Shown here: positions 22,053-41,667 of the stretch, in pieces | Layout of the letters: each line of letters begins with the position of its first letter | Numbering within the stretch: the stretch's first letter is position 1 | DNA from: Nitrospira sp. ND1 | GTDB lineage: Bacteria; Nitrospirota; Nitrospiria; Nitrospirales; Nitrospiraceae | Assembly: GCF_900170025.1 (NCBI RefSeq) | Contig: NZ_FWEX01000006.1 | Coordinates: 514,501 to 578,500 of the forward strand | Direction: 5' to 3' | DNA length: 64,000 nt | Program-made: the position numbers and the translations under genes | The notes under the pieces: generated by a model | Database searches by the model: none | Seen by the model: only the letters and a program-made list of their open reading frames with translations | What the model was told of the DNA's origin: nothing

Positions 22053-22076
22053 GACGCCTCCAAAGAGAGAAGAAGT

Positions 22077-22173: not shown

Positions 22174-22188
22174 CTGATGCAGCCCGTA

Positions 22189-24057: not shown

Positions 24058-24099
24058 AAAAAAAACGTCCTCAGACCCACCTCGGTGGATCGGAGGACG
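24058..24099 (-). terminator. Leader terminator before nadE
   Basis: Stem 24066-24072 with 24093-24099 (CGTCCTC/GAGGACG), inner CCAC/GTGG pairing, and U run 24065-24058 on the minus strand. Confidence 0.85.
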
Positions 24100-24173
24100 T
24101 CGTTGTCCTGCTTCCAATGTATCGTTCGGAACGAATTACTCGTCGGAGACGCCATTGTCCCCGGAAATTATCC
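24058..24173 (-). promoter_or_regulatory. ANTAR-type antiterminator leader before nadE
   Basis: Minus strand from the predicted start near 24173: P1 24162-24145 (GGGGAC, loop AATGGC, GTCTCC, one G-U pair); P2 24109-24094 (AGGAC, loop AACGAC, GTCCT). The 3' arm of P2 is also the 5' arm of a terminator (24099-24066) followed by eight U. Both hexaloops have A1 and G4. This matches the mutually exclusive hairpin/terminator design known for ANTAR antiterminators. Confidence 0.85.
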
Positions 24174-24178
24174 CGTGT

Positions 24179-24207
24179 GTATACCACCGGCCTAAACAGG
24201 CTGTCAA
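24179..24207 (-). promoter_or_regulatory. Promoter of the nadE leader
   Basis: TTGACA (24207-24202), 17-base spacer, GTATAC (24184-24179), then ACAC. Matches the promoter at 38158-38186 in both boxes and spacer length. Confidence 0.8.
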
Positions 24208-25189: not shown

Positions 25190-25195
25190 CTCCGG

Positions 25196-26065: not shown

Positions 26066-26073
26066 CTGACAGC

Positions 26074-26745
26074 CTAATGTTGGTGGGTGTGTAACGGCAA
26101 TGCCTGTTCAATCCACTCGATGACGCGGTCCAAACCTTCGCCCGTATGCAGGTTGGTGAAGATGAATGGCAGCTCGCCACGCATGCGTCGGCTGTCGCGA
26201 TCCATCACCTCGAGATCCGCTCCGACGTGCGGGGCCAGGTCGATCTTGTTGATTACCAACAGATCCGAACGCGTAATCCCAGGCCCGCCCTTGCGAGGAA
26301 TCTTATCTCCTGCTGCCACATCGATCACGTAGATGACCTTGTCGACCAACTCGGGACTAAAAGTGGCCGCCAGATTGTCGCCGCCGCTTTCCACGAACAT
26401 CAGTTCAACCTCGGAATGGCGTTTCAGCAAATCGTCCAGCGCCGCCTGATTGTGAGACGCGTCTTCGCGAATCGCCGTGTGCGGGCACCCGCCCGTTTCC
26501 ACACCAAGAATGCGGTCCTGCGGCAGCGCCCCTCGTTTCGTCAGAAACTCCGCATCTTCCTTCGTGAAAATATCGTTGGTTACCACCGCCAAACTATACC
26601 GATCCCGCAATTTTAAGCAGAGCGCTTCAACAAGGGCCGTCTTGCCCGATCCGACCGGCCCTCCGATGCCGATGACGGGAATACCTTTCGCTCGCGCGTC
26701 AGTCGGACGACCGCTCCCACAGAAATGTTCATCCTCACGATGCAT
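26074..26745 (-). CDS. ureG: Urease accessory GTPase UreG
   Basis: SIMIBI-class GTPase that drives nickel insertion into urease. 223 aa with P-loop [14 protein letters not shown], the nickel-binding CPH motif in [33 protein letters not shown] and base-specificity [13 protein letters not shown]. The N-terminus is short and lacks the His-rich stretch of some UreG proteins. No ureE is found in the window, so nickel delivery to UreG is by another route or by a gene elsewhere. Confidence 0.97.
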
Positions 26746-26813
26746 GGTCTTCGTCCCTCGTCGTTCGTATGTCCGGAAGCGCCGCGATCAAGGATGCTTC
26801 AGGCGTCCCCCTG

Positions 26814-27512
26814 CTACGACCTGAATAGTTTCGATTCCAAGCGGCCGTGGCGCATGGCGTAAATAGCCTGTACCGGCGACCAGGCGGTCATGGTGGTCAA
26901 CTGAGCGGCCTCTCGCACGCATTCGCCGATTGTCGGCGTCCATCGTTCAAGCAGATGCTGGCTTTCACGTTGCCCGATCGGTAACAGTTTCAATCCGGCA
27001 GATACAAACCCGACGGCAGTCTGATAGCAAAACGCGGCAATGGTCTCCGCTTTCTCCCAGCCGGCATCCGCCAACGCTAGTGCCAGGGTGACCGGGAAAT
27101 GGCCCGGCGTCCGACCGGCCTCCATGGCCGCATGAAAGCCCAACACAACGGCATGCGCCGCAGGCTGCTCCACCGCAATCTTCACCACCTGTCTCGCCAT
27201 CTGTTGGCTCGCCAACCGCGATTCCCGGCCGAGCTTCAACGCATGCAACTCGTGATCGATCGATAACGCCGACTGAACGTCGTTGCTGAACAAGGCGTTG
27301 TGGGCCACACCGACCGCCACAGCCTCGCGATGCGCGATCTCATGCCGAAACATGTCTTCCACATACAAAAACAAGTCGTCCCCGGAACGCACCGCTAGAG
27401 CCTGCACCGCCGCTTCCAACCCCGATGAGTAGGCGTATCCGCCGGAAGGAAAAAAACTATCGATAAACCGGAGGCCATTGATCAGGGACACGGTATTCAT
27501 ATTGGCACTCAC
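26814..27512 (-). CDS. ureF: Urease accessory protein UreF
   Basis: Helical accessory protein that links UreD and UreG. 232 aa; typical RFIDSFFPSGGYAYSSGLEAAVQ near the N-terminus, LHALKLGRESRLASQQMARQ in the middle and a GVSHR-like basic end. It follows ureC after a 143-base gap filled by a palindromic repeat. Confidence 0.93.
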   Translation of the reverse strand: MSANMNTVSLINGLRFIDSFFPSGGYAYSSGLEAAVQALAVRSGDDLFLYVEDMFRHEIAHREAVAVGVAHNALFSNDVQSALSIDHELHALKLGRESRLASQQMARQVVKIAVEQPAAHAVVLGFHAAMEAGRTPGHFPVTLALALADAGWEKAETIAAFCYQTAVGFVSAGLKLLPIGQRESQHLLERWTPTIGECVREAAQLTTMTAWSPVQAIYAMRHGRLESKLFRS

Positions 27513-27533
27513 CGACTACTGGCTCCGATAGTC

Positions 27534-27657
27534 AGGCTGCTCAAAGCGCTTCCCAGCAAGACCGCAGACGGCGAACGCACCGGAGGCGCACCCTTGGGGT
27601 ACGTGGAGGATGCTTTCGAGCTGAGCACGTCGCCCGGCGGCGTGTTCAGCAGCCGTC
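27534..27657 (+). repeat. Palindromic intergenic repeat, copy 2 (ureC-ureF gap)
   Basis: Plus-strand form begins GGCTGCTCAAAGCG and ends CGTGTTCAGCAGCC. Inner blocks ACCGCAG, GGAGGCGCACCC and GGGTACGTGGAGG correspond to copies 1 and 3. Its end reaches the ureC stop codon (27656-27658), so it directly abuts the coding region within the urease operon. Confidence 0.75.
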
Positions 27658-29383
27658 AGAAGAGGAAGTACCGCTGCGCCATGGGAAGAACCGAAACCGG
27701 CTCACATCTGAGCAGTTCCCCATTCGCGCGGACTTCGTACGTTTCCGAATCGACTTCGATCCGCGGCAAAGCATCGTTCAACTTCAAATCGCGTTTGCCG
27801 ATGTTGCGGCACCCCTTCACCGCCGCCACGCGCTTCTGCAGTCCCAACTGTTTCGGCACCTCTCGTTCCATTGCTGCCTGCGAGAGAAACGTCAGGCTCG
27901 TGGAGAAGGGGGTACGACCGAAGCTTCCGAACATAGGCCGCGTCAGCACCGGTTGCGGGGTCGGGATCGAAGCATTGGGATCACCCATGGCCGCCGACAT
28001 CGGAAAGCCCCCCTTGATCACGATCTCCGGCTTTACACCGAAGAACGCCGGCTTCCACAACACCAAATCCGCCAGCTTGCCGACTTCGACCGACCCCACC
28101 TTGTGGGCCACTCCATGCGCAATGGCGGGATTGATCGTGTATTTCGCCACATAGCGTCGCGCGCGCCAGTTATCATGTTGGCCATCCTGCTTCTCAACGC
28201 CGTGCTCCGACAAGTGGCCGCGCTGCACTTTCATTTTGTGCGCCGTCTGCCAGGTGCGGATGATGACTTCGCCCACGCGTCCCATCGCTTGTGAGTCGGA
28301 CGACATGATACTGATCGCGCCCATGTCGTGGAGAATGTCCTCGGCCGCAATGGTCTCACGACGAATACGTGATTCGGCGAAGGCGATATCTTCCGGCACT
28401 CGCGGATTCAGATGGTGGCACACCATCAGCATATCGAGATGTTCGTCCATCGTATTGATGGTGAACGGCATGGTGGGATTCGTCGAGGAGGGCAACACGT
28501 TCGGCTCGCCACACACCTTGATGATGTCCGGCGCATGGCCGCCGCCGGCGCCTTCAGTATGGAACGAGTGGATCGTCCGGCCCTTGAAGGCTTTGATCGT
28601 GTCTTCGACGAACCCGGCCTCATTGATCGTATCAGTGTGGATCGCCACCTGCACGTCATAACGTTCTGCCACACTCAGGCAGGTATCGATCGTAGCCGGT
28701 GTCGTCCCCCAGTCTTCATGCAACTTCAGGCCGATCGCACCCGCCTCAACCTGTTCGTTTAATCCTTCAGGCAGCGACGAGTTCCCCTTGCCCAAAAAAC
28801 CGAGATTGATCGGAAAACCATCCGCCGCCTCCAACATGCGATGAATGTTCCAGGGCCCCGGCGTACAGGTAGTGGCATTCGTGCCTGTCGCCGGCCCGGT
28901 GCCGCCGCCGATGAGCGTGGTCAATCCATTGGCCAAGGCTTCGGTGATGATCTGCGGACAAATAAAGTGGATATGCGTATCGATCCCGCCGGCCGTGACG
29001 ATCTTGCCTTCCGCAGACAACACCTCCGTGCAAGGCCCGATCTCCATGCCCTTCGTGACACCATCCATCAGATCGGGATTGCCGGCTTTGCCGAGGCTCA
29101 CGATTCGCCCGTCGCGAACACCGATGTCGGCCTTCACCACGCCCCACCAATCGATGATAACGGCATTCGTAATGACGAGATCCAGCCCGCCCTTCGCCCT
29201 GGTGGCAGTCGGCGACTGCCCCATGCCGTCGCGAATAACCTTGCCGCCGCCGAACTTCGCCTCTTCGCCGGGCATGGTCAGATCGCGCATGATTTCGACA
29301 ACCAGATCTGTATCGGCCAGGCGAATGCGATCTCCGGTCGTGGGGCCGTAAAGGTCGGCGTATTGGCGTCGTGGAATTTTCAT
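27656..29383 (-). CDS. ureC: Urease subunit alpha
   Basis: Catalytic nickel subunit hydrolysing urea to ammonia and carbamate in the cytosol. 575 aa. Nickel ligands and active-site residues are all present: His137 and His139 ([10 protein letters not shown]), carbamylated Lys220 (GLKLHEDWG), His249, His275 ([12 protein letters not shown]), and flap Cys322/His323 (MVCHHLN). I chose the ATG at 29383, preceded by GAGGA, over a frame opening at 29446, because homologues start at [15 protein letters not shown]. Confidence 0.98.
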
Positions 29384-29423
29384 ATGGTCCTCGTGAAGGG
29401 TCGTTCGTGAAACGTATCTCGTG

Positions 29424-29885
29424 TCAGCGCTTAGCGACAAAGCCACGTTCCACGGCTCGTTCCAGCGCAGCCGCCTTCACCTGCGCATCATCCAGCTTGC
29501 CGTTCACCAAACCATTGATGCCATAGGCCACACGGTTGCCGCCGAGTGCGACGAGCGTCACTCGCTTAGACTCGCCAGGCTCGAACCGCACCGCCGTTCC
29601 GGCCGGCACTTGCAGACGAAACCCATAGCTCTTTTCACGATCAAATGTGAGCGCTCGATTGGCCTCGAAAAAATGGCAATGGGAGCCAACCTGGATCGGC
29701 CGATCACCGGTATTGGACACGGTCAGGTCGAGCGTCTGTCGGCCATGCAGGGCGATGATGTCGCCTTCACCGAGAATGACTTCTCCGGGGATGACGGGTG
29801 CAGGCATTGCAAGGCTGCGCTGGCTCTTTGCGCGAGACGACATTGATCGTGGCTTCTTCTCGGCTATCTTAGATTTCCTCTTCAT
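29424..29885 (-). CDS. ureB: Urease subunit beta with basic N-terminal extension
   Basis: Structural urease subunit. The core (from [17 protein letters not shown], residue 27) carries [22 protein letters not shown] and [17 protein letters not shown], as in all UreB. The frame from 29885 adds 26 Lys/Arg/Ser-rich residues. It starts 8 bases after the ureA stop, which favours it, but the ATG at 29807 would give a standard-length protein. The start is uncertain. Confidence 0.93.
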
Positions 29886-29893
29886 TCAATCAC

Positions 29894-30196
29894 CTACCGG
29901 ATCGGCTCATGCACGGTCACCAGTTTCGTGCCATCAGGGAACGTGCCCTCGACCTGAAGTTCGGGAATCATTTCCGGCACACCGGACATCACATCTTTTC
30001 GACTAAGCAGCGTGGCGCCGTAACTCATCAATTCCGACACCGACTTGCCGTCGCGAATTCCCTCAAGGATTTCTGCCGTGATGAAGGCGACGGCTTCCGG
30101 GTGGTTGAGCTTCAGCCCGCGCCCCTTGCGCTCTTTCGCCAAATTCGCCGCCACATAGATCAATAACTTTTCCTGCTCACGCGGTGTCAGATGCAT
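29894..30196 (-). CDS. ureA: Urease subunit gamma
   Basis: 100-aa structural subunit with the canonical [27 protein letters not shown] start region and the [13 protein letters not shown] and [24 protein letters not shown] blocks. First of the urease structural genes, 34 bases after the small lipoprotein gene. Confidence 0.97.
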
Positions 30197-30230
30197 TCCA
30201 AACCCTCATTCAATTGTCATGCGGAAGCCG

Positions 30231-30623
30231 TTAATCGTGCGTCAGCGAGATCGCCGGCACAGCCAGGACTTCCTTCGCATCGAAGACATCGTCTGCGCCA
30301 ACCGGCTTCATCCCCTTATACATCGTCACCGTCATCGAGGTGCGCCGTGAGAGCGCCAACACATCAGCCCGCTGAGCGAGGTGGAAGAAATCGTAGCCCT
30401 CGCGCAATGTCAGCTCGGCGCAACGCCGCCTCAAATAAGCATCCAACTGCTCCTGCGAGGTGAACGAACTGACCCGATACTCGACACGGAAGACGTTCTC
30501 CTTGAGTTGCTCGACCTCATCCTTATCAGCCCCTGCAAGCGGAGTATAATTACCGGTTGTACAAGCTGCCAAAGTAAGGAGACACGCCACAAACGGCATC
30601 TTAAAAGATGTCTTAAGAACCAT
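30231..30623 (-). CDS. Small lipoprotein inside the urea operon
   Basis: 130-aa protein with signal peptide and lipobox LTLAAC-T. The mature part (VEYRVSSFTSQEQLDAYLRRRCAELTLREGYDFFHL) resembles the CC0125/CC1285-type lipoproteins, which keep a LRRCAE-Cys and GYDFF block. Function unknown. It lies between urtE and ureA in the same direction; gaps of 216 and 34 bases suggest it is cotranscribed with ureA. GAGGGGGA precedes the ATG. Confidence 0.75.
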   Translation of the reverse strand: MVLKTSFKMPFVACLLTLAACTTGNYTPLAGADKDEVEQLKENVFRVEYRVSSFTSQEQLDAYLRRRCAELTLREGYDFFHLAQRADVLALSRRTSMTVTMYKGMKPVGADDVFDAKEVLAVPAISLTHD

Positions 30624-30793
30624 TCCCCCTCAGGTAGGAAAAAGAACAGCCAACACGGCATGCGGCACACATACTAGCCAGGGAAGCCCATCAGATCAAC
30701 CGTATCCTTTCGCTATCCTGGCCCGAGGTATAGCTCTCCGCAGAGCGGCACAGGTAGCCCAGATGCGATTGTCGAACCAGGGCCTTCTGAGGC

Positions 30794-30815
30794 CGCGCGT
30801 TGCGCGAGCAGGAGA
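30794..30815 (-). repeat. Third copy of the TCTCC-TGCTCG-ACGCGC repeat
   Basis: The minus strand reads TCTCCTGCTCGCGCAACGCG, close to 4970-4991 and 5027-5050 on the plus strand. It lies just after the urtE stop. Confidence 0.5.
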
Positions 30816-30839
30816 CGACCCCCAGCTCCTCTGTCCTGA

Positions 30840-31550
30840 TCACACCGTCAAGTGCTGTTTCACCATCTCAGCGCTGAGCTCATCTTTTTTCCCCGCGGCC
30901 ATCACCGTTCCCTTCGCCATCACGACATAACTGTCCGCCAGTCGCGCGGCGAAGTGCAGGCCCTGCTCAACCAGAACAATCGCAAACCGGCGCGCCGTTT
31001 TAAACCCGATGATGACGTCTTCGATCTGGTCGACGATCGACGGCTGAATGCCTTCGGTGGGTTCGTCCAATAACAGCACCTTCGGGCTCGACAGGATAGC
31101 GCGCCCGATTGCGAGCTGTTGTTGTTCCCCGCCGCTCAAGACCCCGCCCGGCCTCTCCAGAATTTGCGTGAGCTTCGGAAACAGCGTGAACACCTCGTCG
31201 AACGCGGCTTTCTCCGACGTGCCATTCGCCGAAGTCCCACGCGCCCAAAATCCCAATTGCAGATTTTCGCGTACGCTGAGATGCGGAATAATCTCTCGCC
31301 CCTGAGGCACATAGGCAAGGCCGCGCTTGGCCCGCCGGTCGGTCGACGCCTTGGTGATATCGCTTCCATCGAAAAAAACGCTTCCGCTACGGACGGGCAA
31401 CAGGCCCATGATGGCCTTGAGGGTCGTGGACTTGCCGACGCCGTTACGCCCCATCACGCAGGCGACCTGCCCCGCCTCGATGTCAAACGAGACGTTCCGC
31501 AGGATATGGCTTTCACCGTAATAGACGTTAACCTTTTCAAGTCGTAGCAT
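30840..31550 (-). CDS. urtE: Urea ABC transporter ATP-binding protein UrtE
   Basis: One of two ATPases of the urea importer (branched-chain amino acid transporter family). 236 aa with Walker A GRNGVGKST, signature LSGGEQQQLAIGRA and Walker B VLLLDEPTEGIQPSIV, a LivF-like arrangement. Last urt gene, separated from urtD by a palindromic repeat. Confidence 0.95.
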   Translation of the reverse strand: MLRLEKVNVYYGESHILRNVSFDIEAGQVACVMGRNGVGKSTTLKAIMGLLPVRSGSVFFDGSDITKASTDRRAKRGLAYVPQGREIIPHLSVRENLQLGFWARGTSANGTSEKAAFDEVFTLFPKLTQILERPGGVLSGGEQQQLAIGRAILSSPKVLLLDEPTEGIQPSIVDQIEDVIIGFKTARRFAIVLVEQGLHFAARLADSYVVMAKGTVMAAGKKDELSAEMVKQHLTV

Positions 31551-31571
31551 CGTATTTCTTGATTACCACTT

Positions 31572-31694
31572 CAGGATGTTCAAAAGAGTGTCCAGCACGG
31601 CCGCAGGTGAGACAAAACCGGAGGCGTATCCTTGCGGTACGTTGAGAAGCGTGCCGAGCCGAGAACGCCGCTGGAAGCACGTTTCAACATCCTA
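31572..31694 (+). repeat. Palindromic intergenic repeat, copy 3 (urtD-urtE gap)
   Basis: Plus-strand form begins AGGATGTTCAAAAGAGTG and ends CACGTTTCAACATCCT. It has GGCCGCAG, GGAGGCGTATCC, GGTACGTTGAG and GAGAACGCCG blocks in the same order as the other copies. It abuts the urtD stop (31695) inside the urea operon. Confidence 0.8.
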
Positions 31695-32462
31695 CTACCC
31701 CTGCGCCACCTTCTGGCGCCCCAGATAAATCTCTCTTACCCGGTCATCTGCCTGCACTTTTTCCACCGACCCTTCGCAGATCACGGTTCCCTCATGCAGC
31801 ACGGTCACGGTCCGCGCGATCTGCCGGACAAACTCCATGTCATGCTCGATGACAACGATGGCATGCCTCTTCGCCAGTGACTGAAGCAGCAGGCCTGTCT
31901 GCGCGGTCTCTTCATCCGTCATGCCGGCTACCGGCTCATCCACCAGCAGCAACTCAGGGTCCTGTAAAATGACCATGCCGATTTCGAGCCATTGCTTCTG
32001 GCCATGAGAAAGGGACCCGGCGCGCAGCGACGCCTGCCCCGTGAGACCGATCGTCTCCAAGGCCTCGTCGATTTGCTGCCGCTCTGCTTGGGTGGACTGG
32101 CCCCTCAACGTCGACAACACGCCCTTGCTGGGACGGCTCAACGACAGATCCAGATTGTCCCACACGGTGAGGTTGCCATAGATGGAGGGGGCCTGGAATT
32201 TGCGCCCGATTCCCAGCTGCGTAATCTCATACTCCCGCATGCCGATCAGGTCCATGTCTTTGCCGAAGATCACACGCCCGGCCACCGGTTTGGTCTTGCC
32301 CGAAATGACATCGAGCAACGTCGTCTTGCCGGCTCCGTTCGGGCCGATCACCACCCGCAGTTCGCGATGGTTGACGATGAAATTTAGATTGTTCAACGCT
32401 TTGAACCCGTCATAATCGACGACAACGCCTTCCAAATAGATAATGGAACCGTGTTCCGTCAT
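31695..32462 (-). CDS. urtD: Urea ABC transporter ATP-binding protein UrtD
   Basis: LivG-like ATPase of the urea importer, 255 aa. Walker [10 protein letters not shown], signature LSHGQKQWLEIGMV, Walker B LLLVDEPVAGMTDEE. The ATG at 32462 follows AGGAGG and overlaps the urtC stop (ATGA); a longer upstream frame lies within urtC. The signature Q-W-L-E-I is typical of UrtD as opposed to LivG. Confidence 0.95.
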   Translation of the reverse strand: MTEHGSIIYLEGVVVDYDGFKALNNLNFIVNHRELRVVIGPNGAGKTTLLDVISGKTKPVAGRVIFGKDMDLIGMREYEITQLGIGRKFQAPSIYGNLTVWDNLDLSLSRPSKGVLSTLRGQSTQAERQQIDEALETIGLTGQASLRAGSLSHGQKQWLEIGMVILQDPELLLVDEPVAGMTDEETAQTGLLLQSLAKRHAIVVIEHDMEFVRQIARTVTVLHEGTVICEGSVEKVQADDRVREIYLGRQKVAQG

Positions 32463-33604
32463 GCCTGTTCCTCCTCGACCGCAGGGGGCTTTCGCAATCG
32501 GGCGCTCCACTCCAAAGCCTTCTCACGCACCTGCGTGCTGATCCCCATAACCCCGTCGGGAAACAACAGCACCACCACAACAAACAGTCCCCCCAGGAAA
32601 AACGGCCACAGTTCCGGAAAGTGATTCGTGAGAATGCTGCGGCCTAGATTGACGCCGACGGCGCCGACAATGGCACCGACAAGCGTCGCGCGGCCTCCCA
32701 CTGCTACCCAAATAACCATTTCAAGCGAGGGCAATACCCCCATCTGCGCCGGAGTAATGATCCCGACTTGCGGGACATACAGAATTCCGGCTAGGCCCGC
32801 CAGCGCTGCGGAGACCACAAAAACAAACAATTTGTAATTGGCCGGCGCGTAACCAGAAAACAGGACGCGTTGCTCGCTGTCGCGAATGGCGATCAGCACC
32901 CGGCCGGCCCGCGACGCAATGATCCAGCGGCACAGCACATAGGATCCGCCCAGACACAACACCGTCACAACATAGAGGGCCAGTTGTGTTCCAGGTTCAG
33001 ATAGGCGAAAGCCTAAAATGGTTTTAAAGTCCGTTAGACCGTTGGTCCCGCCAAGGTTCGTTTCATTCCGATTGAACACGAGCCAGGCCATGAGGGCCAA
33101 GGCCTGCGTGATGATCGCGAAATACACGCCACGAATCCGGCTGCGAAAGGCAAGAAAGCCGAATAGCAACGCAAAGCCCGCCGGCACCAGCAGGCCGGCC
33201 AGGACGGCAGCCGTGAAGCTGTAGAAGGGCCTCCAGAATAACGGCAACTCCGTCACCTGATTCCAGACCATGAAGTCCGGCAGGGCGCTGCCGTAGACAC
33301 TCTCGTTCCCGATCGTGAGCATGAGGTGCATCCCGATGCAGTAGGCACCCACACCAAAGAACACCCCCTGCCCCAAACTGAGGATGCCTGCGTACCCCCA
33401 GATGAGATCGAGGCCGAGCGCAAGGATGGCAAACGCCAGAAACTTTCCAAAGCGGTTCAAGGCAAAATCGGACACATGCAACCAGGAATCCTCGGCCGGC
33501 AACACGTTGAGAATCGGCAGCACAAAGAGAAGTATAAACCCGATGCCCCAAAGGATGGGGCCTTCGTTTCGTGTGTTCGACTGTGACGCCAATGATTCTC
33601 CCAT
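32459..33604 (-). CDS. urtC: Urea ABC transporter permease UrtC
   Basis: LivM-like inner-membrane permease, 381 aa with about ten hydrophobic helices. Family motifs include LGLDLIWGYAGILSLGQGVFFGVGAY, RSRIRGVYFAIITQALALMAW and NLGGTNGLTDF. GGAAGA precedes the ATG. It follows urtB by 14 bases. Confidence 0.95.
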   Translation of the reverse strand: MGESLASQSNTRNEGPILWGIGFILLFVLPILNVLPAEDSWLHVSDFALNRFGKFLAFAILALGLDLIWGYAGILSLGQGVFFGVGAYCIGMHLMLTIGNESVYGSALPDFMVWNQVTELPLFWRPFYSFTAAVLAGLLVPAGFALLFGFLAFRSRIRGVYFAIITQALALMAWLVFNRNETNLGGTNGLTDFKTILGFRLSEPGTQLALYVVTVLCLGGSYVLCRWIIASRAGRVLIAIRDSEQRVLFSGYAPANYKLFVFVVSAALAGLAGILYVPQVGIITPAQMGVLPSLEMVIWVAVGGRATLVGAIVGAVGVNLGRSILTNHFPELWPFFLGGLFVVVVLLFPDGVMGISTQVREKALEWSARLRKPPAVEEEQA

Positions 33605-33618
33605 TCTTCCGGAAATGC

Positions 33619-35160
33619 CTATCCTTCTGCGTGACGCCCCTTGACCGCAAACAGTCCGGCCGGCCGTCGCTGGAGGAAGAGAATCACCAGCACAAGGATC
33701 AAGACCTTGCCGTAGACCGCTCCAAGACTGGGCTCCATCACTTTGTTCAACCCGCCGATCCCCAACGAGGCAATGATGGTGCCGGCAAGTTTCCCGACAC
33801 CGCCTGTCACCACCACCATGAATGAATCCACGATGTAGTTTTGCCCGAGTCCCGGCTCCACATTCCCGACCAGCGTTAAGGCCCAGCCCGCGATCCCGGC
33901 CAAGCCGGACCCGAAGGCAAACGTGTACGCATCGACCTTCCTGGTGGGGATACCCAGGCAGGCGCTCATGTTGCGGTTCTGCGTCACGGCTCGCACTCGT
34001 AACCCTAAGCTCGACCGAAACAGAAATGCGTAAATCCCGGTCACACAGAGGATGGAGAGGCCGATGATGAACAGGCGATTAAACGGCAAAAACACCCCCA
34101 CCATGGCCTGCGTCCCGCCGTTTAGCCAGGCAGGAGCCGCGACCGCCGTCAAATCCCCGAAATAGATCCGTGCCCCCTGAATCAGAATCAGGCTCACGCC
34201 CCAGGTCGCCAGCATCGTCTCTAAAGGACGTCCGTAGAGGAAGCGAATCACCGTCGCTTCCAGGATAAATCCGAGCAAGCCGGCAGCGAGAAACGAGGCC
34301 GGCAATGCCGCAAGGTAGTATGAATCAAGCCAGGCTGGAGGGGCATAGAGCTTGAAGCATTCCTGCATCACAAACGTGGCATAGGCGCCGATCATCATCA
34401 GTTCGCCGTGCGCCATATTGATGACGCCCATCAACCCAAAGACAATCGCGAGTCCCACGGACATGATGAGAAGGATGGAACTCAGACTGATGCCGCGAAA
34501 CACCGTTTCGATCACCGTCGACCAGACGTTCCAGGTTTCAATCTGCTCGATGGCAAGAGTCGCCACCGGCGCAAGCGTTTTCTGCTGCTCGGTACTGTTC
34601 GGGTCACTGGCGGCGTGCACCAGTTCCTTCAATGCCGGGACTGCGTTCTGACTACGCATCTCCCCCAATTTCGCCGCAGCCTGCGCCTTCACGTTCGGAT
34701 CGTTAGAAGCGAGCTTCAGCAACTGTGTGGACTCGTCCATCGCATACCGAGCCCACCGGTGGGTCTCACCGCTCGCCGCCGCTTCCAACCAGGGAATGGC
34801 CATGACTCGCCCGCCCGTCCCCAGGTCGGTCGCAGCCGAGCGCCGCGTGTCGGCATCCAGGCTGGCCAGGTTGGCGCGGTGTCTCCAGGCATCGGCCACC
34901 GGCTTGATCGCCATGCGCAGACTTCTATCCGCGTTGGCCCGCAACTCCTCCAACCGTGGCAACCAGGTGATGTCCCCCTGTTCGATCAACAGACCAATCG
35001 CCCGTTCTCGCACCGATTCTTCGTCACTCGACAACTCTTTCAACACCTGCTCAAGTTGATCCGGCGCGGAGGCACCGGGACGTGCCTCCGCCCCAGACCC
35101 GTCCGTCACGCCCAATGTCACCGCGCACCAGACCAACAGGATCCCCACGAGGAAATTCAT
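33619..35160 (-). CDS. urtB: Urea ABC transporter permease UrtB
   Basis: LivH-like permease with the extra N-terminal exported region usual for UrtB. A signal peptide (MNFLVGILLVWCAVTLG) comes first. About 190 periplasmic residues with HEAT-like repeats follow (LEQVLKELSSDEESVRERAIGLLI, SNDPNVKAQAAAKLGEM). The membrane part has GLMGVINMAHGELMMIGAYAT and GIAGWALTLVGNVEPGLGQNYIVDSF. I chose ATG 35160 because the signal peptide begins there; a GTG at 35208 overlapping the urtA stop is also possible. Neither has a good ribosome site. Confidence 0.93.
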   Translation of the reverse strand: MNFLVGILLVWCAVTLGVTDGSGAEARPGASAPDQLEQVLKELSSDEESVRERAIGLLIEQGDITWLPRLEELRANADRSLRMAIKPVADAWRHRANLASLDADTRRSAATDLGTGGRVMAIPWLEAAASGETHRWARYAMDESTQLLKLASNDPNVKAQAAAKLGEMRSQNAVPALKELVHAASDPNSTEQQKTLAPVATLAIEQIETWNVWSTVIETVFRGISLSSILLIMSVGLAIVFGLMGVINMAHGELMMIGAYATFVMQECFKLYAPPAWLDSYYLAALPASFLAAGLLGFILEATVIRFLYGRPLETMLATWGVSLILIQGARIYFGDLTAVAAPAWLNGGTQAMVGVFLPFNRLFIIGLSILCVTGIYAFLFRSSLGLRVRAVTQNRNMSACLGIPTRKVDAYTFAFGSGLAGIAGWALTLVGNVEPGLGQNYIVDSFMVVVTGGVGKLAGTIIASLGIGGLNKVMEPSLGAVYGKVLILVLVILFLQRRPAGLFAVKGRHAEG

Positions 35161-35209
35161 TCGCAGTGTGCTTTCATGCGTGTGTGAGTCACTCCGTGCT
35201 CTGCTCACA

Positions 35210-36574
35210 TCAGGCTTTCTTATAGGTGCCTTGATGATTTACCCAATCGCATCCCTTTTCCGGATTCGTATACTCGCTCCACGGTTCCGGTTTGACCAAA
35301 CCTTTCGATCGCCAGACGACTTTGAACTGGCCGTCCTTGAGAATTTCGCCGATCAGCACGGGTTTGTTCGTATGGTGGTTAGCTTCGTCCATCACGATCT
35401 CTCCGCCCGGCGCGAGGAACTTCTGGCCGTACACGGCCTTGCGAACCACGTCCACCTCGATGCTGCCTGCCTTCTCAACCGCTTGTTTCCACACGTGCAC
35501 ACCAAAATAGGCGGCTTCCATCGGATCGTCGGTGACACGTTTGTCACTGTCCGGCAGATTGTTCTTCTTGCAGTAAGCTTTGAAGCTCGCCACGAACTGC
35601 TTGTTCTGCGGCGTGTCGACGCTTTGATAGTAATTCCATGCCGCCAAATGCCCAACCAGTGCCGTCTTGTCCATTCCACGCAGCTCGTCTTCCGCCACGC
35701 TGAAGGCCATAATCGGCGCGTCTTCGGCACGTAGACCTTGATTGGCAAACTCCTTATAGAAGGGGACATTGCTGTCGCCGTTGATCGTGCTGATGACACA
35801 GGCACCGCCCCCGGCCGAGAATTTCTTAATCTTCCCGACGATCGTCTGATAGTCTTGATGATGGAACGGCGTGTACTCCTCCATGATGTTGGCCGCGGGC
35901 ACTTTCTTGGCCAGCAACATGGCACGAAGAATCTTGTTCGTCGTCCGTGGGTAGACGTAATCCGTTCCCAACAGATAGAACTTTTTAAACCCGCCCCCTT
36001 CCTTGCTCATCAGATATTCCACGGCCGGCACCGCCTGCTGGTTGACCGCCGCCCCGGTGTAGAAGACATTCTTGGAACACTCTTCCCCTTCATACTGCAC
36101 GGGATAGAAGAGCAAGCCATTATTCTTTTCAAACACCGGCAAAACAGACTTCCGACTGACCGACGTCCAGCATCCAAAGACCACCGCAACCTTGTCTTGC
36201 ACCAATAGTTGTTTGGCCTTCTCCGAGAACAAATCCCAATTCGAAGCCGGATCGACGACGACCAGTTTCAGCTGGCGCCCCAGCAGCCCGCCTTTCGCAT
36301 TAATTTCTTCGACCGCCATCGAGACGACGTCCTTCAACGACACCTCGCTGATCGCCATCGTGCCGCTGAGCGAGTGCAACACCCCGACCTTGATCGGTTC
36401 CTTGTCGGCCCCATAGGAGAGCGCCCAGTTCCCGAGGTTTCCCAACAACGCGGCAATCCCGATCCCGACCGCGGTTCGAGAACTCCGCACCAAAAATTCA
36501 CGCCGCGAGGAGGACTCCTCAGGCATCGAACCGGATGTCACGTCATCTATCCCCTGTCGTTTCTGAGTGCTCAT
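35210..36574 (-). CDS. urtA: Urea ABC transporter substrate-binding protein UrtA
   Basis: Periplasmic urea receptor, 454 aa. The N-terminus has a twin-arginine signal (SSSRREFLVRSS followed by a hydrophobic stretch GIGIAALLGNLGNWAL). The mature fold starts IKVGVLHSLSGTMAISEVS and contains VVFGCWTSVSRKSVLPVFE and LVGHLAAWNYYQSVDTP, characteristic of UrtA. Start at 36574 after AAGGAG. First transporter gene after the porin. Confidence 0.96.
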   Translation of the reverse strand: MSTQKRQGIDDVTSGSMPEESSSRREFLVRSSRTAVGIGIAALLGNLGNWALSYGADKEPIKVGVLHSLSGTMAISEVSLKDVVSMAVEEINAKGGLLGRQLKLVVVDPASNWDLFSEKAKQLLVQDKVAVVFGCWTSVSRKSVLPVFEKNNGLLFYPVQYEGEECSKNVFYTGAAVNQQAVPAVEYLMSKEGGGFKKFYLLGTDYVYPRTTNKILRAMLLAKKVPAANIMEEYTPFHHQDYQTIVGKIKKFSAGGGACVISTINGDSNVPFYKEFANQGLRAEDAPIMAFSVAEDELRGMDKTALVGHLAAWNYYQSVDTPQNKQFVASFKAYCKKNNLPDSDKRVTDDPMEAAYFGVHVWKQAVEKAGSIEVDVVRKAVYGQKFLAPGGEIVMDEANHHTNKPVLIGEILKDGQFKVVWRSKGLVKPEPWSEYTNPEKGCDWVNHQGTYKKA

Positions 36575-36603
36575 CGTTCGACTCCTTTCACCGTCATCGC
36601 TGG

Positions 36604-37974
36604 CTAGAAGTTGTACCAAGTTGAGAGCATGAAATTATCGCCGGCAAAATGCTCCCCAGTTGACCATTCGCTCATGAGATGATTCCATTCCAACGACGCA
36701 TACAAGTCGCCCCAGATATGGCGGACGGCCGTCAGGTACGTCCGATGATTGAGCACATATTGCGTGTCTACTCCCGCGCTGGTCCCGCGCAGATCGGAAT
36801 TGAGCGGGTTGTCGAATCCATACCCGGCAATGAGGGTGAGCCGCCGGTCATAGGCGTAGTCAAACTCTCCCCAGCCGATCACGGTGCGGATCGGTTTTCC
36901 TGTCCCCAGATTTCGCTCTTGGCCGTAACGGAAGAACTCCACTCCCAATGCCTGGCCGTAGGCAATCTCGCCGGTGAATTTCAAGCGGCTGGTCAGGGGC
37001 GCGGCAAACTCTGCGCCGACGAGGTACGAATTGATATCGTTGCCGGCCGGAATACCACCGGCCGTGGGCGCAGACCGGTAATGCCGGAAAGCAGCGTTCA
37101 GGGCCACCATGTAGCCTGCCTGATCGCCCGTTCCCATGTATGCGAACCGAGTTCCAACATAGGGCATCTGCACCGGGTCGTTGAACGCGTTTTCGGAACA
37201 AGCAAATCCGCTGTTCCCGCAACTGCCTGGTGCCGCCGCGGCAGCGCCGGCGCCCTGAAAGGTTCGCCGCTGTGTTTGTGGTTGAATGGCCGACAGACCG
37301 CGCTCGAATCGCATGACGGTCAAGAGGCCGTTGACGTTCTCGTTAAATTGATGTTTCACGGTGATCTGCGGAAGACGCTGCCACAGATTCCCGTTGTACC
37401 CCATGATAGAGAAATCGATCAGGTTCGGATGGGACGACATGATCGGCGTCCAATCCATACCGGCCGTAATGGTCGTCCGGCTGTTATTCGGCGAGTATTT
37501 AACGTTCGCCAACCGCAGGCGGGGCGAGATATTGCCCGCATTGTCGGTCTGGCTGTAGAAATCCGCCTCGACGACGCCGGTGAGCGAATGGGTTCCATCC
37601 GTTCGGTCGGCACGTAACCCGAAGACGCTGTATCGAGGGTTTAACGTCGAGGAAGCGTTGCTGCTCTTGCCGGCGGCTGTCGCATAGCCGTTAAACTGAC
37701 CGGGATCGAGCGGGTTGGTATTTCGGTTACTATAGATCCCATCCAACTCGATGCGACCGTAGGGAACGATGCTCCCCTTGCCTTCACCGGCAAAGGTGGG
37801 GGTTACACACCCTCCACAGATCACGGCCGGCGGGGCTTCCACGTCTCGCAATCGTTGACCGGCCCCTGCTGCCTCTCCGGCACTCTGCTCCTCCGCGCCG
37901 ACCGTCGTCGCAACCACAGCGACCATCATCACGATCGCGCAGAGTGTGTAGACTCCTGTCCTTCGTACCTGCAT
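36604..37974 (-). CDS. Outer-membrane porin of the urea operon (FmdC-like by position)
   Basis: 456-aa precursor with a signal peptide (MQVRRTGVYTLCAIVMMVAVVATTVGA) and a beta-barrel. Amphipathic strands run from GSIVPYGRIELDGIYSN to a C-terminal STWYNF ending in Phe. It resembles porins of the DcaP/FmdC kind described next to urea transporters in Nitrospira (recalled knowledge). Urea or short-chain amide uptake is inferred from position, 30 bases before urtA. GGAGGG lies before the ATG at 37974. The gene is preceded by an ANTAR-type leader. Confidence 0.82.
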   Translation of the reverse strand: MQVRRTGVYTLCAIVMMVAVVATTVGAEEQSAGEAAGAGQRLRDVEAPPAVICGGCVTPTFAGEGKGSIVPYGRIELDGIYSNRNTNPLDPGQFNGYATAAGKSSNASSTLNPRYSVFGLRADRTDGTHSLTGVVEADFYSQTDNAGNISPRLRLANVKYSPNNSRTTITAGMDWTPIMSSHPNLIDFSIMGYNGNLWQRLPQITVKHQFNENVNGLLTVMRFERGLSAIQPQTQRRTFQGAGAAAAAPGSCGNSGFACSENAFNDPVQMPYVGTRFAYMGTGDQAGYMVALNAAFRHYRSAPTAGGIPAGNDINSYLVGAEFAAPLTSRLKFTGEIAYGQALGVEFFRYGQERNLGTGKPIRTVIGWGEFDYAYDRRLTLIAGYGFDNPLNSDLRGTSAGVDTQYVLNHRTYLTAVRHIWGDLYASLEWNHLMSEWSTGEHFAGDNFMLSTWYNF

Positions 37975-38035
37975 GCTATGTTGCCCTCCTGGCTCGAAAC
38001 GATTCGACTCACGCCAGACCGGAGGGCTCACGCGC

Positions 38036-38079
38036 AAAAAAAAACGCCCTTCCGGTCCAACCATCGGACCAAAAGGACG
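38036..38079 (-). terminator. Leader terminator before the urea operon
   Basis: Outer stem 38045-38051 with 38073-38079 (one G-U pair), inner GGTCC/GGACC pairing, and U run 38044-38036 on the minus strand. Confidence 0.85.
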
Positions 38080-38151
38080 CCGTTGTCCTCTGCGCACTTG
38101 CTGCCTACAACAAGTCAGGACCACGTTGTCCTGACTTTATCCTCGCACAGG
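38036..38151 (-). promoter_or_regulatory. ANTAR-type antiterminator leader before porin-urt-ure
   Basis: Minus strand from the predicted start near 38151: P1 38135-38114 (GTCAGGAC, loop AACGTG, GTCCTGAC, eight perfect pairs); P2 38089-38074 (AGGAC, loop AACGGC, GTCCT). The 3' arm of P2 forms the 5' arm of a terminator (38079-38045) followed by nine U. Both loops have A1 and G4. It is the clearest of the leaders, and its product would govern the whole ~13-kb urea uptake and hydrolysis operon. Confidence 0.87.
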
Positions 38152-38157
38152 TTGGGT

Positions 38158-38186
38158 GTATACGCCTCTGAGCTCTCGATTGTCAA
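38158..38186 (-). promoter_or_regulatory. Promoter of the porin-urt-ure leader
   Basis: TTGACA (38186-38181), 17-base spacer, GTATAC (38163-38158), then ACCC. Matches the nadE-leader promoter in both boxes and spacer length. Confidence 0.8.
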
Positions 38187-38281
38187 GCAAGGCTATACGT
38201 TGTTCTTCCCACTCTTACGATTTTCCCTGTGGTACACTACCTCGCGCGGAGGCAATTCGATCACGAAACAGGAAGCACTCC

Positions 38282-39202
38282 ATGTACTGGCGTCAAACAG
38301 GCTTCGTATTATTGACTCTGCTGATGTCAGGCTGCATGAGCGGCCTGCAAGTGGACGTGATCGTGCAGGAATCCGCGCAGGGCCAGGTCTACCTGGATCG
38401 TATTCCCGATCGCCAATTCCAGGCGACCCACCCCATTCGACTCGACCAGGGCCTCATCGCGAGCAGCCTGCAAGGCATCAGGGTGCATGAAGAGACGGGC
38501 CTCCTGCGAGCCATGGGCATGACTCAAACATCGACGGTCCCGGCTTTCTCCTGGCAGGACATTGCCTTTCTCGCTCCCGCGATCACAGACGCCTTGCGGC
38601 GAGCGGCGGCAGATCAACAGATTGGATTTCGTCTGATACAGCGGGGAGAACGTGGATATGGAGAACGGGCCGGCGCCGCTGTCGGTTCATCCGAGCCTCC
38701 GCTCCGGCTCTCGCCGGAAGAAACCACAACCGGCTCCGTCTTCGCGTACGGACATTCTCTCTTCATCACGCTGACTGAGTACCGACAACGCCGCGACAAT
38801 CCCGATACGGTCAACATGCCGAATCGCCGTCTTCCGCAGCCGAGCGGACAGCTGAATCGCCAGCTAACATTTGCTCCGGCCGAGGCATTGCGTTCGAACC
38901 AGTTCGCACCGGCCTTTCTCGACGACCCGACCAACGTCCTCATCATCGATTATGAGGCCTTGGCGAAACTCCCCCTCCCCTCAGCACCGTCGGCACTCTC
39001 CCATCGCGCGACGGAGAGTCTCCAGCCGTCACCGACAACACAACCAGCCGGGTCGGGTGCTGCGGACAGCGAACTTCACACCATCAAAGAGGAGATGAAG
39101 AAACGAGATTCCGAGGTGGAAGAACTCAAGAAAGAACTTCAGGACATCAAACGGCAACTAGGGAGTCGACAGAACAATCGAGGCGCCACGCCTTTCAAAT
39201 AA
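38282..39202 (+). CDS. Coiled-coil lipoprotein, paralogue of the gene at 24278
   Basis: 306-aa lipoprotein: signal peptide with lipobox LMSGC-M, then FQATHPIRLDQGLIASSLQGIRV and FSWQDIAFLAPAITDALRRAAADQQIGFRL. A C-terminal coiled coil (EMKKRDSEVEELKKELQDIK) and a polar tail follow. The block order matches the 24278-25189 protein. GGAAG lies before the ATG at 38282; a GTG frame from 38156 would start inside the opposing promoter. Divergent from the urea-operon leader and convergent with the GAF-ANTAR gene. Family and function not recognised. Confidence 0.75.
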   Translation: MYWRQTGFVLLTLLMSGCMSGLQVDVIVQESAQGQVYLDRIPDRQFQATHPIRLDQGLIASSLQGIRVHEETGLLRAMGMTQTSTVPAFSWQDIAFLAPAITDALRRAAADQQIGFRLIQRGERGYGERAGAAVGSSEPPLRLSPEETTTGSVFAYGHSLFITLTEYRQRRDNPDTVNMPNRRLPQPSGQLNRQLTFAPAEALRSNQFAPAFLDDPTNVLIIDYEALAKLPLPSAPSALSHRATESLQPSPTTQPAGSGAADSELHTIKEEMKKRDSEVEELKKELQDIKRQLGSRQNNRGATPFK

Positions 39203-39242: not shown

Positions 39243-40502
39243 CTAGTCTCGACGCTTATCGGCCCGTTCTTCGATTTCTCCGGCCAGGAGAATGGCTTCT
39301 GCGATCTCTCGCATGGATTTGCGAAGATCCATGCTCTGGCGTTGAATCAATTTGAATGCGTCTTCTTCCGACAGCCGCTTCGACCGCATGAGATACCCCT
39401 TAGCCCGGTCGAGCAACTTCCGGACCTGCAAGGCTTCCTGCATTTCAAACGATTTCTCAAGCAACGTGGTGTGCTCAATGGAAATCGCGGCCTGATTGGC
39501 AATCGCCTGCATCAATTTGACATCTTCCGCCGTGAAGGTATGCGGCTTGGACGTATACGTATTGATCACGCCGATGGCCTTCTCACGCACCAGCATCGGC
39601 ACGCACAGGAGCGAGCAGAGGCCCTCCTTCGCAGCCATGTCCGGATACATGTAGGTGCCTTCTTTAGTGACATCCGGCACGATGATCGGCCGACGATCCT
39701 GAACGGCACGCCCGCTGATGCTTTGCCCGATCTTCACGTTGGGCTTGCGCCGATACTGCTCGCTCAGACTTTGCGTGGCGGCGATCCGAAGTTCACCGGT
39801 CGGCTGATCCAGAAGAATGATGGAGCAAATCTTCGATCCCATCATTTGAGCCGTCATCGTCACAATCAACTGCAGCACGTCCTCTATCAATCGGTTCGAC
39901 GACACGGTCTCCGAGACCTGGGACAGCGTATCCAGTTGTAGCGCCTTCCGCGTCATCTGATCGTACAGGCGGGCGTTCTCAATGGCCCCTCCGACCTGCG
40001 TGGCAATGGTCGAGAGCAACGCCAGTTCGTCGGGCCGGTATCGGCGCGACCGCTTGTGCTGCACATTGATGACGCCGACGACCTCCTGCTTGGTCGTAAT
40101 CGGCACGGAGACAAATGCCTGGTAGCGGTCTTCCGGCAGATTGTGAAAGAACTTAAACCGTGTGTCATCGCTAGCGCTGTTGGGAATGACGACACGCGTC
40201 CGCTCCCGCGCCACCCATCCGGTGATACCCTCGCCCATGCCGATGGTGATTCGCCCGATCAGCTTCGGATGCGGATTCTTGGAGGCCCTCAGGATCAGCT
40301 CGTCCCTTTTATCCGACAACAAATACAGCAAGCAGGCGTCGGCCTTGGTCACTTCCACGACCATATCCACGATATGCCGGAGCACGGCCTCCAAGTCGAG
40401 CGTGTTGCTGATCGACTCGCTGATGCGATGGAGGACATCCACCTCACGCGTCTTTTCACGCAAGGCTTGCTCGACTTGAGTCAGCGTTCGTTTAGTCGCC
40501 AT
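39243..40502 (-). CDS. GAF-GAF-ANTAR RNA-binding antiterminator protein
   Basis: 419-aa cytosolic regulator. A short helix (residues 1-25) is followed by two GAF sensory domains (about 25-175 and 195-340; each starts with a L-x-x-V/I-x-x-x-I helix and ends with a GVINV/GVINT strand), then a C-terminal ANTAR domain (about 345-405: RKLLDRAKGYLM, LSEEDAFKLIQRQSMD, RKSMREIAEAILL). ANTAR proteins bind twin hexaloop hairpins in leader RNA and block terminators, and such leaders occur in this window. No receiver domain is present, so the GAF domains probably provide the signal input; the ligand is unknown. ATG at 40502 follows AGGAG, 7 bases after the aroB stop. Confidence 0.93.
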   Translation of the reverse strand: MATKRTLTQVEQALREKTREVDVLHRISESISNTLDLEAVLRHIVDMVVEVTKADACLLYLLSDKRDELILRASKNPHPKLIGRITIGMGEGITGWVARERTRVVIPNSASDDTRFKFFHNLPEDRYQAFVSVPITTKQEVVGVINVQHKRSRRYRPDELALLSTIATQVGGAIENARLYDQMTRKALQLDTLSQVSETVSSNRLIEDVLQLIVTMTAQMMGSKICSIILLDQPTGELRIAATQSLSEQYRRKPNVKIGQSISGRAVQDRRPIIVPDVTKEGTYMYPDMAAKEGLCSLLCVPMLVREKAIGVINTYTSKPHTFTAEDVKLMQAIANQAAISIEHTTLLEKSFEMQEALQVRKLLDRAKGYLMRSKRLSEEDAFKLIQRQSMDLRKSMREIAEAILLAGEIEERADKRRD

Positions 40503-40509
40503 TCCACTC

Positions 40510-41667
40510 CTAACGTGCCCGTCCGACGGGCCTTGCACGCTTCAATTCGGCTGCCTCTCTGGTGTGGACATCCTGAAACCAGGCGCGCGTCGTGGCCTTC
40601 TCCAATGGAACAATGCGCACGGCCCCGATCTGCTCCGGCACCACACAAAAAATCGTTCCGGCAGACACTTTCTTGTCCTGCTGCATGGCACCCCACAACG
40701 CATTGAACGCGACCTTCGGCAACCGGTCCGGCAAACCCGCGGCCTTCACCAGTGCGCGCAATCGAGCAACCACCTCTGCGCCACAATAGCCGAGGTGCCT
40801 GGCCAGGTCGGCCTCATAAACCATCCCGACCGCAACGGCCTCCCCATGGATGAAGCCCCGATACCCGCCGAGGGATTCCAACGCATGCCCAATCGTATGG
40901 CCGAAGTTCAAAATGCGGCGTCGGTCGGCCTCACGCTCATCTTCCGACACCACCTGTGCCTTGATCTCACAGGACCGCTTCACGATGTGCGCAACGGCGT
41001 CATCGGTCAACTTCTGGATCGATGCCATGTTCTGTTCCAGATACTCAAAGAAGGCCGCGTCCGCAATCACACCATATTTGATGACCTCAGCCAGACCAGC
41101 CACCCACTCGCGCAGCGGCAGAGTCGCCAGCATCGCAGGATCGATGAACACCGCGCGCGGCTGGTTGAAGGCCCCGATCAAATTCTTCCCCTTGGGGTGA
41201 TCGACACCCGTCTTCCCGCCGACACTTGAATCGACCTGGGCCACCAGACTCGTCGGCACTTGCACGAACGGGATGCCACGCTGATAGATTGCGGCGGCAA
41301 ATCCCGTGATGTCGCCGATGACACCCCCACCCAAGGCCAGCAACGTCGAGGAACGCTCAAATCTGGCATTCACGAGGGCATCCATGACCGTCCCGATGGA
41401 GCGAAGGGTTTTTGTCCGCTCCCCGGGAGGCAGCACGATGGGAACGACCGTAAACCCGGCGGCCTTCAGCCTGCGAGTCACCTGCGTGAGATAGTGCTTG
41501 GCAAGATTGCGATCGGTCACGACCCCTACCTTGCCCACGCATTTGAGACGCTTCAGCTCCTCCCCGATCTCCCGAAGAAGATCGCGGCGAATGACGATGG
41601 CGTAACTTCGCGCACCGAGTTCGACATGAATGGAGTGGGACGGCCTATCAATAGAAGAACGTGTCAT
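40510..41667 (-). CDS. aroB: 3-dehydroquinate synthase
   Basis: Second step of the shikimate pathway, NAD- and Zn-dependent. 385 aa. Visible are the NAD-binding GGGVIGDITGFAAAIYQRGIPF and TSLVAQVDSSVGGKTGVDH segments. The metal ligands are a Glu in EVIKYGVIAD and the His residues of LNFGHTIGHALES and HGEAVAVGM. The gene lies between the pil operon (beyond a terminator-like hairpin) and the GAF-ANTAR gene, with which it is probably cotranscribed. Confidence 0.96.
   Translation of the reverse strand: MTRSSIDRPSHSIHVELGARSYAIVIRRDLLREIGEELKRLKCVGKVGVVTDRNLAKHYLTQVTRRLKAAGFTVVPIVLPPGERTKTLRSIGTVMDALVNARFERSSTLLALGGGVIGDITGFAAAIYQRGIPFVQVPTSLVAQVDSSVGGKTGVDHPKGKNLIGAFNQPRAVFIDPAMLATLPLREWVAGLAEVIKYGVIADAAFFEYLEQNMASIQKLTDDAVAHIVKRSCEIKAQVVSEDEREADRRRILNFGHTIGHALESLGGYRGFIHGEAVAVGMVYEADLARHLGYCGAEVVARLRALVKAAGLPDRLPKVAFNALWGAMQQDKKVSAGTIFCVVPEQIGAVRIVPLEKATTRAWFQDVHTREAAELKRARPVGRAR

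Follow-up and report, generated by a model that had tools for sequence, protein, structure and literature searches.

A probable ANTAR-type attenuation leader of the porin-urt-ure operon in Nitrospira sp. ND1 and its counterparts at other nitrogen operons

Known ANTAR systems and the leader of the urt operon

The closest comparison for the locus considered here is provided by the ANTAR proteins EutV (eut, Enterococcus), NasR (nasF, Klebsiella) and AmiR (amiE, Pseudomonas), whose target RNAs combine twin hexaloops bearing A1 and G4, closed by a C-G pair, with a terminator that overlaps the second hairpin (P2). These proteins respond to their substrates, and the sensors of the group are a receiver, a NIT or, in AmiR, an AmiC-bound domain. 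According to the available text of the respective papers, NasR responds to nitrate and its SELEX yielded a C-G closing pair under the loop (PMC7496416), and EutV contacts RNA through 11 residues (PMC8934654).

For many bacteria, Ramesh et al. 2012 predicted regulons of nitrogen genes under ANTAR control, with ANTAR RNA matches 5' of urea transporter, P-II, ammonium and nitrite genes and, in Desulfotomaculum acetoxidans, 13 predicted sites in six units (available text of PMC3369931). The same text states that, as of 2012, no PAS- or GAF-containing ANTAR protein had been characterised. Since urea transporters were included in these predictions, the kind of system and its mechanism were already known. 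Nitrospira did not turn up when the main text of that paper was searched by word, its supplementary tables may hold an entry for it, and neither "antiterm" nor "ANTAR" occurs in the main text of two Nitrospira papers (PMC6606698, PMC12342949). Literature searches, with most subscription papers outside their coverage, found no account of ANTAR control for Nitrospira. The initial annotation, which knew of no description of such control of a urt-ure operon in Nitrospira, agrees with these searches; in other bacteria, urea-transporter cases had been predicted (PMC3369931, available text).

The analysed stretch of DNA (the window) comprises 64,000 nt of the Nitrospira sp. ND1 genome. The leader occupies positions 38186–38036 of the minus strand and includes the following elements:

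38157–38186, minus: sigma-70-type promoter of the porin-urt-ure leader, TTGACA at 38186–38181 and GTATAC/TATACA inside 38163–38157
38112–38137, minus: P1 hexaloop hairpin, loop AACGTG at 38127–38122, ten perfect pairs
38072–38091, minus: P2 hexaloop hairpin, the putative antiterminator, loop AACGGC at 38084–38079
38036–38081, minus: intrinsic terminator, 18-pair stem at 38081–38043 with a 3-nt loop and nine U at 38044–38036; excludes P2

The promoter, the two A1/G4 hexaloop hairpins and the U-tailed terminator sharing an arm with the second hairpin, all of which had been proposed initially, were confirmed. The one correction concerns P1, to which eight perfect pairs had been ascribed; its letters are AAGTCAGGAC-(AACGTG)-GTCCTGACTT. 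The -10 element is either GTATAC, with a 17-bp spacer, or TATACA, with an 18-bp spacer, and the promoter was not listed under a stricter rule that demands T at the final -10 position. P2, AGAGGAC-(AACGGC)-GTCCTTT, forms seven pairs, one of them G-U, and its 3' arm doubles as the 5' arm of the terminator. Read from the sequence, both hexaloops have A1, G4 and a C-G closing pair.

The fold of the leader had a z-score of -6.7 relative to dinucleotide shuffles, none of 200 shuffles being equally good. Stepwise folding predicted that P2 forms once its 3' arm has emerged and that the terminator replaces it after the terminator's own 3' arm, P2 being transiently lost and regained between the two states. 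Three further leaders of the window followed the same order, with P2 first and the terminator replacing it. An Rfam search of 37950–38250 matched no family, riboswitch or leader, at E ≤ 1. The locus has the features of an ANTAR-responsive attenuator RNA, namely twin A1/G4 hexaloops, C-G closing pairs, a terminator excluding P2 and an ANTAR protein encoded in the genome. The genes behind the leader are as follows:

36604–37974, minus: porin-like gene, first behind the leader, no Pfam match, named by reading; likely start ATG 37974
30840–36619, minus: urtABCDE urea ABC transporter, UrtA-D models above the curated cut-off
30840–31550, minus: urtE, final gene of the urt cluster, an ABC ATPase called urtE by position
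25196–30196, minus: urease and accessory genes, from ureA-like 29894–30196 to ureD 25196–26065

The likely porin start lies 62 nt past the U tract. UreD was assigned by Pfam; the other ure genes are putatively named from their position and sequence likeness. The initial annotation had placed the whole porin-urt-ure operon under the leader. In favour of this, a terminator scan of the minus strand at 24500–38250 found none of more than seven pairs inside the operon (11 sites versus 12.7 expected); against it, a promoter-like site is located at 30572–30543 (minus) ahead of the ure genes, which may have some leader-independent transcription. Separately, the Rfam family 5_ureB_sRNA was matched with 84.3 bits at 28939–29236 of the plus strand, antisense to the interior of the urease alpha gene, and this match may merely reflect conserved coding sequence.

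The ANTAR protein and the other leaders of the genome

One ANTAR domain was found in the whole genome (4.45 Mb, six contigs, completeness 100). It belongs to the following gene, situated some 1.1 kb upstream of the promoter of the urt leader and flanked by aroB and by a convergent gene (38282–39202, plus) that matched no Pfam family:

39243–40538, minus: GAF-GAF-ANTAR protein, 431 aa, the sole ANTAR-domain protein found in the genome

The ANTAR domain (PF03861; 67.3 bits versus a curated cut-off of 27.3) is C-terminal and follows two GAF domains. The ANTAR region matches the solved structures 1s8n, 6wsh and 4akk, which are Rv1626, EutV and NasR, respectively, according to the available text of the ANTAR papers. 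A gapless alignment revealed that six of the 11 RNA-contact positions of EutV are identical, two are conservative and three differ (R168Q, N173D, R177S); the residues that hold G4 are among those kept, as in the EutV, NasR and AmiR systems. Modelling of the protein with 37 sequences led to a mean pLDDT of 80.5 and a pTM of 0.52, and the predicted secondary structure fits two GAF domains, long helices and then the ANTAR bundle. In a Foldseek search with this model, tandem-GAF structures ranked first; the relatives found were cyclic-nucleotide phosphodiesterases, phytochromes and the PtsP GAF, which do not name the ligand. The first GAF domain is similar to NifA- and PtsP-type GAFs. The tandem-GAF sensor distinguishes the protein from the EutV/NasR/AmiR group.

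A covariance model built from 39 leaders (see below) was used to scan the genome. Four strong sites were found (72.4, 68.0, 53.5 and 51.5 bits), all inside the window and confined to one 23-kb stretch, and the next-best match reached 15.9 bits (E 1.2). The scan scored 150 of 1204 first-look candidates, so that weak sites may be missed. The sites precede porin-urtABCDE-ure, nadE-DUF6733-amt-PII-glnD and nirC-cynS-nirA, the last with two leaders in tandem. Besides the urt leader, the features are:

24058–24207, minus: second ANTAR-type leader, before nadE-DUF6733-amt-PII-glnD (72.4 bits, E 3.3e-15, whole genome)
16636–23958, minus: nadE, DUF6733, amt, P-II and glnD-like genes behind the second leader (Pfam)
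15014–15151, minus: third leader, first member of the tandem pair (53.5 bits, E 2.5e-10)
14903–15006, minus: fourth leader, second member of the tandem pair, before nirC-cynS-nirA (51.5 bits, E 7.7e-10)
11696–14861, minus: formate/nitrite transporter (here nirC), cynS and nirA behind the tandem leaders (Pfam)
22104–22173, minus: fifth site, twin hexaloop without a terminator, between nadE and DUF6733 (18.7 bits, E 0.003, window scan)

The second leader has a promoter with TTGACA at 24207–24202, P1 loop AATGGC, P2 loop AACGAC and a terminator; the third has the promoter TTGACG/TATACA, loops AACGAC (P1) and AAAGGC (P2) and a terminator; the fourth has loops GCTGAA (P1) and AACGAC (P2) and a poor promoter of its own (7/12). 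The two attenuators in series occupy 15104–14903 (minus). The fifth site consists of two perfect hexaloop hairpins with the loops AACGAC and AATGGC and was missing from the whole-genome scan report. Both of its hairpins can be drawn by eye in nine stretches 5' of related DUF6733 genes, two of which (L004 and L122) come from one genome, and the surroundings vary. A role in translation or stability is possible for this site. A search with a fixed-word twin-loop pattern adds little, since it gave three matches in this genome versus two for the reversed control; two of the three were known leaders and the other apparently arose by chance.

The Nitrospira system differs from the EutV, NasR and AmiR systems in having one protein over several operons, tandem leaders, a variable P1-P2 spacing and one likely target without a terminator. 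The regulons of Ramesh et al. 2012 are similar in having sites at P-II, ammonium, urea and nitrite genes, several per genome and more than one per unit; the cases named in the available text are from other bacteria. The initial annotation had placed urea uptake and urease under relief of the terminator. The ANTAR part of this claim is supported; a urea-specific switch is not, the leader also standing before ammonium, P-II, nitrite and cyanate operons. Control by urea only was rejected, since the nadE-amt and nirC-cynS-nirA operons have the same leader, the latter as a tandem pair.

A further known system is the control of urt/ure and amt genes by NtrC or NtcA. The leaders precede the same kind of target genes; NtrC and NtcA act on DNA at initiation, whereas the promoters of the Nitrospira leaders look sigma-70-like. 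No protein reached the curated cut-off of the NtrC model in 11 genomes including this one, whose best match had 465 of 558.6 bits, and this strict cut-off was reached in one of 14 control genomes. Since all matches fell below it, an NtrC-like protein was neither found nor fully excluded.

Conservation of the leaders and co-occurrence with the ANTAR gene

To describe the leader family, 80 Nitrospirales loci encoding the GAF-GAF-ANTAR protein were scanned together with the window, and a twin hexaloop with a terminator was found near the ANTAR gene in many of them. From 68 pattern matches, 66 candidates were retained after the removal of two matches in coding sequence (one in L078, one in L080), and 41 deduplicated seeds were reduced to the 39 leaders of the alignment and covariance model by removing the poorly placed L023 and L069. 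Each seed had to show a P1 stem with five or more pairs, P2 as GGAC-loop-GT(C/T)(C/T) and a U run, with either A or G as the first and G as the fourth base of each loop; the P1 and P2 pair counts and the loop conservation in the alignment lean on these rules, and P1 covariation is inflated.

In the 39 leaders, five of six P1 pairs changed on both sides (the seeds having been picked for the P1 stem), and four of five P2 pairs were invariant (GGAC, G4 and GT being demanded by the seed pattern). The C-G closing pair was present in 39 of 39 at both P1 and P2, the latter set by the pattern and the former not. The pairing of the terminator was not selected for, and 8 of its 12 pairs changed on both sides. 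Four of five measures of terminator covariation were above shuffles, the exception being further pair types, where the value was reached by 100 of 500, and one terminator pair was unformed in 26 of the 39 leaders. There was no large conserved core besides the two hexaloops and the terminator.

The expectation of the initial annotation that A1 and G4 would be conserved in homologous leaders was borne out by two loop-blind counts, in both of which loci of close relatives are counted separately. Among the 66 candidates, 55 upstream (P1) hairpins had five or more stem pairs, and 47 of these carried A1 and G4 (shuffled control: mean 2.2 of 22.4). Among 47 hexaloops overlapping a terminator, G4 was present in 41 and A1 together with G4 in 34; of the seven with G4 and without A1, six are GATGAC or GAAGAC. 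P2 loops of these two kinds, starting with G and keeping G4, were observed in eight loci (L047, L051, L053 and L056–L060), as if A1 were dispensable there. The spacing between the two loops varies from 24 to 54 nt in the seeds; EutV was reported to be spacing-sensitive (PMC8934654, available text).

The covariance model matched at E ≤ 0.01 in 68 of the 80 ANTAR-gene loci, the seed loci by construction; the 12 loci without a match include L020 (N. moscoviensis), whose nearest leader lies just past the fetched stretch. A sigma-70-like promoter with at least 9/12 consensus positions was found in 94 of 117 distinct 60-nt stretches 5' of leaders (126 matches minus duplicates and short or N-rich stretches) versus 3.4% of shuffles. 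The promoters mostly have TTGACA and are sited just ahead of P1. By reading, 14 of the 23 leaders without such a promoter are second members of tandem pairs; therefore, tandem attenuators probably act in series on one transcript.

A covariance-model search for the twin hexaloop and terminator, which had been suggested initially for Nitrospira urt upstream regions, found leaders in all 29 genomes of the genus, with one to seven in each and, by reading of the table, at least one close tandem pair in 26. Four matches at E ≤ 1e-5 were obtained in N. moscoviensis and three in Ca. N. defluvii. It is barely conceivable that the urt element constitutively terminates a transcript arriving from upstream and has its hexaloops by chance. 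A strong intrinsic terminator does exist, as this explanation requires, but it is placed between a promoter with a perfect -35 and the operon, twin loops recur in all four leaders of this genome and throughout the genus, and loops and terminator are conserved.

Of 146 genomes from the order Nitrospirales, a leader was detected at E ≤ 0.001 in 109 and an ANTAR domain, always as one match, also in 109: 107 have both, 35 neither, two ANTAR only (G120, G029) and two the leader only (G106, G157). The Fisher p-value of this co-occurrence is 7e-29, ignoring the relatedness of genomes. Closer inspection of G029 revealed a weak leader (22.5 bits) between the ANTAR gene and nadE; in G120, the 12 kb retrieved with the ANTAR gene yielded no leader. 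In G106, a strong leader lies next to urease genes (L190, 9080–9171, minus) and no ANTAR match was found in the genome or in 18 kb fetched; this leader was perhaps carried in with the urease cluster. In a draw of 198 genomes from the phylum, 42 have a leader, of which one, weak, is from outside Nitrospirales; the 146- and 198-genome scans used stricter filters, with weak matches lost. Order-wide co-occurrence with a single ANTAR gene sets the Nitrospirales apart from the cases named in the available text of Ramesh et al. 2012.

A compact structured leader with mutually exclusive folds could also be a protein-free riboswitch, in which the terminator/antiterminator pair answers a metabolite directly. 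This is very improbable: the conserved core is limited to two hexaloops and a terminator, and this candidate was rejected on the lack of Rfam matches at E ≤ 1 and on the presence of leaders following the ANTAR gene across the 146 genomes.

The genus g2 provides a contrast that partly addresses shared descent. Among its genomes listed by name, nine have both leader and ANTAR gene, 19 neither, two the leader only and none ANTAR only; the tally leaves out 17 further negatives whose genus is not shown. Ten ANTAR-less g2 genomes were compared, in which urtA is kept in nine and nadE in ten. No leader was found in 18 urtA or nadE stretches (about 4 to 16 kb upstream) from these genomes, the best E being 0.86 (G037 and G048 are covered for nadE only, G070 for urtA only). 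The ANTAR-bearing G074 has a leader in both stretches, and the ANTAR-bearing G030 is without urtA. A simple sigma-54 pattern scan 5' of urtA and nadE in the ANTAR-less genomes, run with no positive control, gave no sites and no common replacement switch. Conservation, co-occurrence with the ANTAR gene and the absence of the leader at urtA and nadE in ANTAR-less relatives support the initial reading of the leader as an ANTAR antitermination element.

A nitrogen gene (porin of urt, urtA, nadE, amt, P-II, nirC, cynS or nirA) begins within 250 nt of 60 of 115 distinct leaders and within 2.5 kb of 92, versus 2.8% and 15.7%, respectively, of random places in the same loci; the tally leans on loci fetched around the ANTAR gene or leaders. 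The 250-nt count omits most porin-urt cases, since an upstream GTG inside the leader had been used as the start of the reference porin ORF. Other genes behind leaders, named by eye, encode a large NirB-like reductase, an NrtA-like transporter, a PAS sensor kinase, an outer-membrane protein followed by amt, and a lipoprotein. The PAS sensor histidine kinase (about 745 aa) comes first behind the leader in L029, L031, L045, L052 and L054, where read by eye (N-broken in L054), and in L045 urtA is located further downstream. In deep-branching loci, for example L061 and L064, the gene order is ANTAR gene, leader, nadE.

Proposed mechanism and significance

With high confidence, we propose that 38186–38036 (minus) is an attenuation leader read by the tandem-GAF ANTAR protein 39243–40538 and part of a general nitrogen-assimilation regulon. 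At the level of sequence, its anatomy, conservation, terminator covariation, mutually exclusive folds and co-occurrence with the ANTAR gene argue for this; the binding, the direction of the response, the constancy of the promoter and the signal are what we infer. The housekeeping-type promoter would initiate urt transcripts constantly, and P1 and P2 of the nascent RNA would fold first. If active ANTAR protein is absent, the terminator would invade P2 and transcription would end at 38036. When the GAF domains sense nitrogen shortage, an ANTAR dimer would bind the A1/G4 hexaloops and hold P2, so that polymerase could proceed into porin-urtABCDE-ure. The same protein would read the leaders of nadE-amt-PII-glnD and nirC-cynS-nirA. 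Most likely, a single RNA-binding protein turns on the uptake genes for urea, ammonium, cyanate and nitrite in Nitrospira.

The targets span urea, ammonium, cyanate, nitrite, P-II and NAD synthetase, which makes general nitrogen status more probable than urea as the signal. The mechanism could be the same with urea or another substrate as the signal and the urt leader switched separately, as suggested by the position of the leader directly 5' of the porin-like gene and urt and by the substrate-responsive NasR, AmiR and EutV. We regard this as unlikely, given that a single ANTAR protein would have to serve all four leaders, which stand before urea, ammonium, nitrite and cyanate genes, and that Ca. 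N. defluvii still keeps the ANTAR gene although the three leaders found there lie ahead of nadE and nirC and none ahead of urt. For the preferred signal, nitrogen status, 2-oxoglutarate or glutamine would fit but is a guess; the NifA GAF domain binds 2-oxoglutarate (PMC8219145, available text).

The timing with which Nitrospira takes up urea, cyanate, ammonium or nitrite for nitrogen bears on how these bacteria feed ammonia oxidisers and on their life in wastewater plants and soils. The urt switch would be one of at least four such switches in the genome, which provides a single testable regulator with four defined RNA targets, candidate targets for a tandem-GAF ANTAR protein. The cultured relatives N. 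moscoviensis and Ca. N. defluvii carry the same leaders, and sister species without both regulator and leaders offer a natural control. Of particular interest are the order-wide reach, the tandem-GAF sensor and a possible stand-in for NtrC-type control. More tentatively, at somewhat short of an even chance, Nitrospirales may mostly run nitrogen assimilation through one tandem-GAF ANTAR antiterminator on always-on promoters, which would replace NtrC/NtcA-type activators, with an additional terminator-independent mode at 22173–22104. Nitrospirales are globally important nitrifiers and, if this is true, one ANTAR antiterminator would serve in most of the order.
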